64,000 bases of DNA from Sunxiuqinia elliptica (lineage in GTDB: Bacteria > Bacteroidota > Bacteroidia > Bacteroidales > Prolixibacteraceae): positions 62,001-126,000 of the forward strand of contig NZ_FONW01000006.1 of assembly GCF_900113005.1 (NCBI RefSeq), in the 5' to 3' direction. Shown piece by piece: positions 13,163-63,308 of the stretch. The first letter of the stretch is position 1, and each line of letters opens with the position of its first letter. A model generated the notes under the pieces. That model searched no databases, was not told the DNA's origin, and saw only the letters and a list, made by a program, of their open reading frames with translations. Made by a program: the position numbers and the translations under genes.

Positions 13163-13189
13163 AAAAAAAAACCGCCTCGAGGGGCGGTT
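13163..13189 (-). terminator. Intrinsic terminator of rpoD
   Basis: On the minus strand a GC-rich hairpin (arms 13183-13189 and 13170-13176, AACCGCC/GGCGGTT) is followed by a run of T (A on the plus strand at 13163-13171). It lies 12 bases after the rpoD stop. Confidence 0.85.
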
Positions 13190-36634: not shown

Positions 36635-36822
36635 AGTTCTATTTATTTTTGCCGTCAAAGCTTTGTTTTTTTTTCGAAAAAAGAAAGTTGCGATCAATAA
36701 AATTATCCAATACGTCAAATCCATCTTGAATTCATTACAACGTATTTAAGAAATGATTTATTGGATGAATAAATAATGAAAGTAAAGAGATATCATAAAT
36801 CTATTAAGTAAGTATTATTTCA

Positions 36823-57169: not shown

Positions 57170-57712
57170 CTATGAGTCTCCTTTTATCCAGTTAACAATC
57201 TTCGGATCGTTTGGCTTAACTTTTGGCTTGATAAAATCGACTAGCTGTCCATTTTTATCAATCAAGTATTTTTGAAAGTTCCAGCTAACTTCTGAATCAC
57301 TGACTCCGTTTTTTGCTTTTTGGGTAAGCCATTGGTAAACGGGATGAATATCTTTGCCTTTAACAGATACTTTGCTCATCATGGGGAAGCTTACGCCATA
57401 GTTTTTTTCACAAAACGCAGCAATGTCTTCGTCTGAGCCAGGCTCTTGGTTCGCAAAATTATTGGCCGGAAAACCAACAATTGTAAAATGCTCTCCTCCA
57501 TATTGGTCATAAAGTTCTTGTAAAAGTTCATATTGTGGGGTCAGACCACACTTGGATGCCGTGTTAACCACCAAAACTTTTTTACCTTTCAACTGGGCTA
57601 AATCAAAATTCCCGCCTTCAATATCTTTAACGGTAAACTCATGGAAGCTACTTTGTCCAAAACTTAATGAAATGGCAAAGATCATAGCTAAAAGAAAAGT
57701 CAATTTTTTCAT
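57170..57712 (-). CDS. Exported glutathione peroxidase-like protein
   Basis: The product is 180 residues with a signal peptide (cleavage near LSFGQSS, about 16-22). The active site NTASKCGLTPQY has cysteine rather than selenocysteine, the glutamine-type triad residue appears in FPANNFANQEPG and the tryptophan in WNFQKYLID. Note NN in FPANNF where many relatives have CNQF; the resolving cysteine of typical Gpx is therefore missing or replaced. It reduces peroxides with thioredoxin-type donors. A second, cytosolic Gpx lies at 62.8 kb. Confidence 0.93.
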   Translation of the reverse strand: MKKLTFLLAMIFAISLSFGQSSFHEFTVKDIEGGNFDLAQLKGKKVLVVNTASKCGLTPQYELLQELYDQYGGEHFTIVGFPANNFANQEPGSDEDIAAFCEKNYGVSFPMMSKVSVKGKDIHPVYQWLTQKAKNGVSDSEVSWNFQKYLIDKNGQLVDFIKPKVKPNDPKIVNWIKGDS

Positions 57713-57930: not shown

Positions 57931-59034
57931 ATGGAGAATTTTATTGTTTCTGCCAGAAAATACCGTCCAGATACTTTTCAAACAGTAGTTGGTCAAGCTT
58001 CAATTACTTCAACATTGAAAAATGCCATCAAGAACAGTCAGTTGGCGCATGCCTATTTGTTCTGTGGTCCTCGTGGTGTTGGGAAGACAACTTGTGCCCG
58101 TATTTTTGCAAAAACAATTAATTGCCAAAACTTAACAGCAGAGACTGAGCCTTGCAATAGCTGTGAGTCATGTATGGCTTTTAACGATAATCGTTCGTAT
58201 AACATCCATGAGCTGGATGCGGCATCGAACAACTCGGTCGATGATATTCGTAACCTGACAGATCAGGTGCGGATTCCTCCACAAATTGGAAAGTACAGCA
58301 TCTATATTATTGATGAGGTTCACATGTTGTCTCAGGCTGCTTTTAATGCCTTCCTGAAAACCTTGGAAGAGCCACCAAAGCATGCCATTTTTATTCTGGC
58401 AACAACCGAAAAGCACAAAATTATCCCAACCATTTTATCGCGTTGTCAGATTTTTGATTTTAATCGAATTAAGATCGGAGATATTTCGGGGCACCTGAAC
58501 TATGTTGCCCAGAGCGAACAAGTGCAAATCGAAAGCGAAGCATTAAATGTCATTGCTCAGAAAGCGGATGGCGCCATGCGAGATGCACTGTCTATTTTTG
58601 ATCAGATTGTTAGCTTCTCAGGTAAAAATATCACGTATAAAGATGTGATTGATAACCTGAATGTATTGGATTACGACTATTATTTCCGTTTAGTCGATTT
58701 GCTGTTAGAGAACGATGTCGCCAATGCGTTGTTGCTGTTTAATGAGGTGTTGGATCATGGTTTTGACGGGCACCATTTTATTAATGGACTGAGCAGCCAT
58801 ATACGGGATTTATTGGTCTGTAAGGATCAGATTACAGTGCAGTTGCTTGAAGTTGGAGGTGAAATCAAGGAGAAGTATAAAGCACAGGCTGCTGGTTGCG
58901 ATCCCGCCTTTTTGCTGGAGGCGTTGAAAATAAGCAACGAATGTGACATGCAATACAAAGCCAGCCAGAATAAACGCTTGCTGGTTGAACTGAGTTTGAT
59001 CCGGATGGCACAGCTCACCTTAAAAAAAAAATAG
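57931..59034 (+). CDS. dnaX: DNA polymerase III gamma subunit (short product of dnaX)
   Basis: The frame codes for 367 residues with Walker A GPRGVGKTT (about 46-54), a zinc site of four cysteines (CQNL ... CNSCESC, about 64-79), Walker B IIDEVHMLSQAAF, the SRC motif and AAA+ domains I to III. It stops at a TAG directly after a run of ten A (59022-59031). The tau-type C-terminal domain continues in the -1 frame to 59696. The clamp-loader core is complete in this short product, so it could act as gamma. A longer tau of about 588 residues would need a -1 slip. Confidence 0.95.
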   Translation: MENFIVSARKYRPDTFQTVVGQASITSTLKNAIKNSQLAHAYLFCGPRGVGKTTCARIFAKTINCQNLTAETEPCNSCESCMAFNDNRSYNIHELDAASNNSVDDIRNLTDQVRIPPQIGKYSIYIIDEVHMLSQAAFNAFLKTLEEPPKHAIFILATTEKHKIIPTILSRCQIFDFNRIKIGDISGHLNYVAQSEQVQIESEALNVIAQKADGAMRDALSIFDQIVSFSGKNITYKDVIDNLNVLDYDYYFRLVDLLLENDVANALLLFNEVLDHGFDGHHFINGLSSHIRDLLVCKDQITVQLLEVGGEIKEKYKAQAAGCDPAFLLEALKISNECDMQYKASQNKRLLVELSLIRMAQLTLKKK

Positions 59035-59055
59035 CTAACGACAACGAAGTTGTTG
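59022..59055 (+). promoter_or_regulatory. Putative slippery site and hairpin for dnaX frameshifting
   Basis: A10 at 59022-59031 overlaps the zero-frame TAG (59032-59034). A hairpin with a 7-bp stem (59039-59045 with 59049-59055, one G-T pair, GAA loop) starts 7 bases after the A run. This resembles the E. coli dnaX site (A-rich heptamer plus hairpin) and the Thermus dnaX A run that causes transcriptional slippage. Confidence 0.6.
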
Positions 59056-59696
59056 AATTAGAGCCAATTTTCTCTGGGAAAAGTCAAGCTGCTGCACGAA
59101 AAACAAGCCCTTCCGGGGCTGCTCCCAAACGAGATGAAGAACCTCAAAAAGCATCGAATGCCGCTAGCTCATCAGATGGTGACGTTCCTGTGCGAACTCC
59201 TGTAAAACGAGTAATAAAGCGACGGGGAAGTGGTTTTACGCCTTCAATTAAGGATGCTCTGTCTGGTAAAATCGATGGCGATAAAGAAGGAGACGCAAAG
59301 GAGAAGCTCAAGTATTTTGTTGGCGAACAACTAAAGGAATCGTTTACCAAAGAGCAGTTTGAGGCGAAATGGGGAGAGTATCTTTTGAGATTGAGTGACC
59401 GTCCAAACCTGAAAGCGACCCTTTCCAGAACACCGGAATTATTGGAGAATTTCAAGCTGAGCTTAAAGATTGATAATTCGGTTCAGGCAGAGGAAATTAA
59501 TAAGATTAAACCGGACTTGGTCTCTTGGTTGCGGAAAGAATTGCGGAACACAAGTATCGAGTTGATTACCGATATTGTGGCGCAGGAAGTTGAGTATAAG
59601 CCTTATTCTGAGACCGAGAAGTTGAATGAGATGGTTAAAAAGAACCCAAATCTTGCTTTAATGAAGCAACGGTTTAATTTGGATTTTGGAGAATAA
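59034..59696 (+). CDS. dnaX: tau-specific C-terminal part of DnaX, in the -1 frame
   Basis: This frame is open from inside the A run through the stop at 59696 and has no plausible start of its own near its 5' end (a GTG at 59190 is internal). Read as a -1 extension it gives a flexible linker (SGKSQAAARKTSPSGAAPK) and then a domain (FVGEQLKESFTKEQFEAKWG to the end) that looks like the C-terminal domain of Bacteroidota DnaX, ending MKQRFNLDFGE. In E. coli the tau part binds the polymerase core and DnaB. Alternatives are a real frame-shift mutation or an error in the homopolymer count. The 5' limit given is the first codon after the TAG region. Confidence 0.8.
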   Translation, partial: ANDNEVVELEPIFSGKSQAAARKTSPSGAAPKRDEEPQKASNAASSSDGDVPVRTPVKRVIKRRGSGFTPSIKDALSGKIDGDKEGDAKEKLKYFVGEQLKESFTKEQFEAKWGEYLLRLSDRPNLKATLSRTPELLENFKLSLKIDNSVQAEEINKIKPDLVSWLRKELRNTSIELITDIVAQEVEYKPYSETEKLNEMVKKNPNLALMKQRFNLDFGE

Positions 59697-62810: not shown

Positions 62811-63308
62811 ATGATAACTCATTTTTATGACTTTAAAGCGCGGTCTCTTCAGGGAGAGGAGATCGATTTTTCGGCGTACAAAGGGCAGGTGATATTGGTC
62901 GTGAATACGGCCAGCCAATGTGGTTTTACGCCGCAGTATGAAGGGTTGCAGGAACTTCATGAGAAGTATCAACCCGAGGGTTTGACGATTCTGGCTTTTC
63001 CCTGCAATCAGTTTGGTAAACAGGAGCCCGGAACTGCCGATGAAATTGCCCGGGGCTGTTTGGTAAACTACGGGGTTTCGTTTCAGGTATTCGATAAAGT
63101 TGCCGTTAATGGAGCCCAGGCACACCCTGTTTTTCGCTTTTTAAAGCGCCAGTTGCCGGGCGTGTTGGGTGGCCGGATCAAATGGAATTTCACAAAATTC
63201 TTGCTCGACCGGGATGGTGTTCCCGTCAAGCGCTTTGCTCCAATGACCAAGCCCGAAAAGATAGAACAAGACATCCTCAACTTGCTTTCCTCTGAGGCTA
63301 CTTTCTAA
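62811..63308 (+). CDS. Cytosolic glutathione peroxidase-like protein
   Basis: The product is 165 residues without a signal peptide. The active site NTASQCGFTPQYEGLQ carries cysteine, and FPCNQFGKQEPG (with the resolving-type cysteine) and WNFTKFLLDRDG are intact. It is a standard thioredoxin-dependent Gpx. The relation to the exported Gpx at 57 kb is clear by motif, but that copy lacks the FPCNQF cysteine. It ends 11 bases inside the convergent nitroreductase gene. Confidence 0.94.
   Translation: MITHFYDFKARSLQGEEIDFSAYKGQVILVVNTASQCGFTPQYEGLQELHEKYQPEGLTILAFPCNQFGKQEPGTADEIARGCLVNYGVSFQVFDKVAVNGAQAHPVFRFLKRQLPGVLGGRIKWNFTKFLLDRDGVPVKRFAPMTKPEKIEQDILNLLSSEATF

Follow-up and report, generated by a model that had tools for sequence, protein, structure and literature searches.

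A conserved run of ten adenines at the gamma/tau junction of dnaX in Sunxiuqinia elliptica and other Bacteroidia, a probable site of transcriptional slippage

We analyzed a window of 64,000 nucleotides from the genome of Sunxiuqinia elliptica (Prolixibacteraceae; contig NZ_FONW01000006.1, positions 62,001 to 126,000). In this window the dnaX gene is split into two reading frames at a run of ten adenines (A10). The features of the junction are as follows:

57931..59034, plus strand: zero-frame ORF of dnaX, gamma subunit, 367 aa, domains I-III (Pfam DNA_pol3_delta2, DNAX_ATPase_lid and DNA_pol3_gamma3, to residue 362)
59022..59031, plus strand: A10 tract, candidate slippery site; a run of A9-A13 is found in 259/285 class loci
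59032..59034, plus strand: TAG, zero-frame stop and end of gamma; a zero-frame stop lies directly 3' of the run in 65/108 family loci
59036..59038, plus strand: TAA, stop of the +1 frame, which closes the third frame; same offset (4 nt) in 86/108 family loci
59031..59696, plus strand: C-terminal part specific to tau (linker and C-terminal domain), read in the -1 frame, 221 codons plus TAA; matches PRK14971 at 410-612/614, with purifying selection
about 59039..59055, plus strand: 7-bp hairpin, judged incidental; present in the window, not conserved in genus members or over 238 loci

The gamma ORF starts with the ATG at 57931 and closes after 367 codons (protein end LKKK-stop) with a TAG placed straight after the last adenine, just as the initial annotation had claimed. 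The end of gamma is also the end of domain III, since DNA_pol3_gamma3 spans residues 238-362. The -1 frame has a stop at 58986-58988; from 58989 it runs without interruption until its TAA (59694-59696). Its tau-specific part was predicted to extend for about 220 codons, and we count 221 from position 59031, with GTG 59190 as the first ATG, GTG or TTG. Both halves match consecutive parts of one DnaX model (PRK14971/NF011531, NCBIfam) in the expected order: gamma scores 756.6 bits at 1-365/614 (cut-off 685), and the tau part alone 78.5 bits at 410-612/614, below the cut-off for the whole protein. The -1 frame thus carries the part specific to tau. Both non-tau frames stop close by, frame 0 at the TAG and the +1 frame at the TAA.

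The source genome (5.09 Mb, 26 contigs) has 15 exact A10 runs and two longer ones, counting both strands. Within the window there are just two other runs of at least nine A or T, each of 9 bases (13163-13171 and 36666-36674). One of the A10 runs of the genome (L313, G000:C17:236-247) is located early in a 247-aa ORF with a weak match to a GIY-YIG domain. Two glutathione peroxidase genes (Pfam GSHPx; 57170-57712, minus strand, and 62811-63308, plus strand) flank dnaX, ferritin and RelA/SpoT.

We searched 140 genomes of the family Prolixibacteraceae and obtained a dnaX match in 131, from which 109 loci were fetched and 108 junctions read; the remaining 22 genomes are known by their open-frame length, each below 450 aa, some perhaps cut by contig ends. 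The run was A10 in 96 loci, A11 in nine and A9 in three, and one locus (L438, genome G048) was cut by a contig end before the junction. The gene was split at 104 of the 108 junctions: tau lies in -1 at 101 of these and in +1 at two, and one (L208) has no tau-frame call. The locus of a Sunxiuqinia MAG (L002, Prolixibacteraceae) whose N-terminal part of DnaX is 91% identical to that of the window likewise has A10 followed by TAG. Open frames of at least 550 aa were seen in 5/131 matches, and one of them (G118, L153) is in fact split, as reading from its start shows. The four uninterrupted loci (L149-L152) have A11 at the same site, with similar flanks. Aligning relatives at the junction had been proposed with the initial annotation as a check; even where the frame is uninterrupted, an A run is still held.

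These counts bear on the possibility that the split reflects an error of sequencing or assembly, the true run being A8 or A11 and dnaX a single frame. This was regarded initially as the chief alternative, and it is true that homopolymers are error-prone and that A11 occurs in four family genomes and A9 in two with the same flanks. However, 104/108 family junctions are split, the stops after the tract are conserved, and among the 13 family genomes whose assemblies comprise one or two contigs, 11 read A10 (the other two read A9, L163, and A11, L208, the latter still split). We consider an error very unlikely for the window and reject it as a general explanation, because both the run and the split are kept throughout the family. 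Such persistence over a wide range of relatives makes the run very probably a functional switch and no sequencing error.

At the level of the class, we counted 285 distinct dnaX loci as Bacteroidia, comprising 80 named Bacteroidota records (whose class membership was not checked singly) and the searched genomes. Nine loci that duplicated others from their own genomes (L001, L082-L089) were dropped before the junction tables were made, and the duplicate records L092 and L200 before the count of 285. A run of A9-A13 is present at the junction in 259 of the loci: A10 in 215, A11 in 22, A9 in 19 and a longer run in three; in the remaining 26 it is shorter than nine, missing or cut. By comparison, the first 960 nt of each of 267 dnaX genes contain, taken together, a single run of A9 or longer, and thus the run at the junction is not due to chance. 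Since dnaX loci are related by descent, raw counts such as these overstate independence. Outside the family we read 98 of the 104 matching genomes of the class; 57 of the 98 encode DnaX in one frame, so that the statement that most Bacteroidota do so holds by a modest majority, but the A run is retained in 91 of the 98.

The 26 loci without a run of nine include three Bacteroidaceae records (L008, L020 and L032) and all four loci of group f2, and one (L438) is merely cut by its contig. In 22 of them tau is in the frame of the N-terminal part (frame 0), mostly as one ORF, and three have no frame call. The switch is thus dispensable in some cases. In L056 and L074, dnaX is interrupted near the junction although there is no A run of 9. 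Three loci from groups that otherwise hold the run (L218, L260 and L263; groups f5 and f8) have at most A6-A7 and tau in frame 0 in a single ORF, apparently reflecting losses of the switch. Outside the class, the run was present in 2/24 dnaX loci read: L285 (group f49) has A10 and L291 (group f28) A9 near the junction, with stops of the other frames at 5/22 and 20/27 nt, respectively. These may represent an independent gain, an older origin or chance.

The genomic frame of tau is not fixed. Of the 255 loci counted, all with a tau-frame call, 151 have tau in the -1 frame, 99 in frame 0 and five in +1 (L054, L163, L229, L427 and L436, of which L163 and L436 are A9 readings and possibly assembly errors). 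A quick maximum-likelihood tree was made from 150 rows, of which 129 have the run. It implies at least 21 switches of the tau frame among 0, -1 and +1, at least 16 when five family rows with A11 or A9 (again possibly assembly errors) are set aside, and at least 13 among the rows with exactly A10; these numbers are rough, because 48/147 inner branches are weakly supported and the tree has some long branches. Mixed direction of the shift has been taken as a sign of transcriptional realignment (PMC3711429).

Whichever frame leads on to tau, the other two tend to be closed. With the tau frame set by profile search, one frame continues to tau and both others stop within 20 nt in 229/255 loci; four loci (L019, L143, L210 and L236) exceed 45 nt. 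After dereplication at 88% protein identity, both non-tau frames stop within 20 nt in 114 of 129 taxa, versus 20.2 expected from the genes' own downstream positions. At control positions the other two frames stop at a median of 12 nt (the nearer) and 51-56 nt (the farther), compared with observed medians of 2 and 12 nt, and both stop within 20 nt at 15-16% of them. The +1 stop falls within 20 nt in 86/99 loci with tau in frame 0 and in 139/151 with tau in -1. The first set of 239 loci for this analysis included L021, whose tau-frame call is inconsistent; it was left out of the 255-locus counts and of the selection, tree and folding analyses.

This pattern bears on three further explanations. 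The first is programmed -1 ribosomal frameshifting of the E. coli type on A_AAA_AAA with stimulators, the mRNA being a faithful A10 copy. In every phase A10 offers a slippery heptamer, 151/255 loci have tau in the -1 frame, and a hairpin does exist in the window. However, ribosomal shifting by -1 calls for a single closed frame plus, in E. coli, stimulators (PMC3711429), whereas here the +1 frame is closed without need, the tract is kept at about ten A, more than a heptamer requires, and in 5/255 loci (two of them, L163 and L436, maybe assembly errors) tau is in +1, which a -1 shift does not reach. The hairpin, moreover, is not conserved. The initial annotation was right that 7 bp can pair at this place in the window (the 45 nt that follow the run fold at -8.1 kcal/mol), but not even the genus members that were folded share it, and their folds downstream of the run differ from each other. 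Over the 238 loci folded, we found no conserved downstream hairpin, the mean being -7.28 kcal/mol, against -6.99 kcal/mol in control windows; folds were somewhat stabler in groups f12, f13 and f3, less so in f5 and f6, and weaker in f7. Hairpin-driven frameshifting was rejected on this basis, downstream folding being on average no stronger than in controls. The letters upstream of the slip site also vary between families, by inspection. An Rfam family exists for the DnaX frameshift element; our Rfam search returned four weak matches to unrelated families, all below their gathering scores (E up to 5). We regard -1 ribosomal frameshifting as improbable.

The second explanation, sliding of ribosomes on poly(A) in both directions along a faithful mRNA, would account for the double stops as well, and such sliding has been demonstrated on iterated AAA codons in E. 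coli systems (PMC4363877). There, however, output was diminished by premature termination (PMC4363877), and in Thermus dnaX, the precedent with A9, slippage is transcriptional (PMC1088944). We regard ribosome sliding as quite improbable as the source of tau. The third is decay or phase variation, in which a hypermutable DNA tract switches tau on and off within the population. Homopolymers mutate through replication slippage and A9, A10 and A11 neighbours exist, yet the length is held near ten class-wide, the double trap has no purpose in such a reading, and a tau-off state is probably lethal, judging from the function of the replicase. This explanation is extremely unlikely.

In nine pairwise comparisons of the tau part in the -1 frame (six with genus members, three with other members of the family), pN was 0.19-0.37 and pS 0.78-0.91, values that indicate purifying selection on this frame; since synonymous sites are saturated, no pN/pS ratio is quoted. 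The tau part had no convincing sequence match in PDB, the best being bacterioferritin (E 0.011). For its AlphaFold model (mean pLDDT 76.8), Foldseek gave no match that reached E 0.001, and the weak matches include RbfA, DnaA domain I and DciA. These three have KH-like folds, as does domain V of E. coli tau; a KH-like fold for the tau part may be taken as a lead only.

We propose that the A10 of dnaX is a programmed slippage site that yields gamma and tau from one gene, most likely through slippage of RNA polymerase, and assign to this reading a probability of roughly 0.8. RNA polymerase would slip on A10 to give mRNAs with 9, 10, 11 or more A's. The unslipped A10 mRNA would end at the TAG in frame 0 and the mRNA one A short at the TAA in +1, both giving gamma (domains I-III), while an mRNA with one extra A (or with A8 or A14) would enter the -1 frame and give tau, with its linker and C-terminal domain. 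The layout of the junction, its conservation, the stops in the two non-tau frames and the purifying selection on the tau part are observed directly, and from them we infer the slippage itself, its transcriptional level and its rate. That recoding at A10 gives tau, with gamma as the zero-frame product, had been claimed from the window and gains support from conservation. As for the two routes suggested then, -1 frameshifting or transcriptional slippage, the Thermus-like route fits better than the E. coli type, given the closure of the third frame, the variable direction and the lack of a downstream fold conserved on average. The window has both features typical of Thermus, namely an uninterrupted tract of at least nine A and close stops in both non-tau frames.

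A second gene may use the same device. Among the 15 exact A10 runs of the source genome is one, outside the window, in coaBC (L316, G000:C7:39978-41183, minus strand; TIGR00521, 446.3 bits), located between the two Pfam domains of the protein (6-178 and 188-370), in the CoaC/CoaB linker. Here CoaB is in frame 0, and the other frames stop 4 and 8 nt after the run. In relatives (loci L346-L365 among them) CoaB is in frame 0, -1 or +1. Among 79 coaBC loci read, 47 have a run of at least nine, with CoaB in frame 0 in 29, in -1 in 17 and in +1 in one; both closed frames stop within 20 nt in 37 of the 47, versus 10.6% of control positions. Because 20 of the 79 loci were picked for looking split, the others being best matches, these proportions are no population estimate. 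Two split relatives (L363 and L365) have no run, so some coaBC splits have another cause. In the class sample, coaBC matched in 145/148 genomes, and most of the matches listed span both domains in one frame. It is thus possible that coaBC is a second slippage gene.

We lean slightly towards a broader interpretation, in which the device is class-wide in Bacteroidia: a run of about A10 at a domain junction, with one frame open and two closed, shared by two or more housekeeping genes (dnaX, coaBC), would fix the ratio of a short to a long protein. With slippage supplying every frame, the length of the run in the genome may vary among A9, A10 and A11 in a nearly neutral way, the default product flipping while the output is kept. 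If so, much of a bacterial class would rely on the stuttering of RNA polymerase for the tau (or gamma) of its replicase, and the labels "frameshifted" or "truncated" would be wrong for these dnaX genes and for some coaBC genes. The natural flips in polarity would allow asking whether the tau:gamma output stays constant as the genomic frame changes.

Two-ORF dnaX genes with A10 have been known since 2013, and the window locus is of that type: Antonov et al. (PMC3711429) reported an A10 tract in nine of 17 such genes and proposed transcriptional realignment. As there, the gamma ORF is in the zero frame and ends at the poly-A, with tau reached by a -1 frameshift; in contrast to that work, the loci sampled here span the family and the class and include both polarities. 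The main text of PMC3711429 has no mention of coaBC or "phosphopantothen-", and in a literature search that did not extend to most subscription journals and supplements, we found no published account of the range across the class, of the Bacteroidia double trap or of the arrangement in coaBC. E. coli dnaX, with A_AAA_AAG, an SD-like element and a stem-loop (PMC5009743, PMC3711429), likewise uses recoding to obtain both DnaX forms from a single gene. In E. coli it is gamma that arises by the shift, unlike here, where in addition a conserved hairpin was not found and the run is longer than a heptamer. In Thermus thermophilus dnaX, RNA polymerase slips on A9 and stops lie close by in both other frames (PMC1088944, PMC5009743). 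The window shares with it the A tract within the coding sequence and the close stops in both other frames, but its zero-frame product is gamma, whereas that of Thermus is tau; the Thermus polarity, with tau in frame 0, is found in 99 of the 255 loci read.
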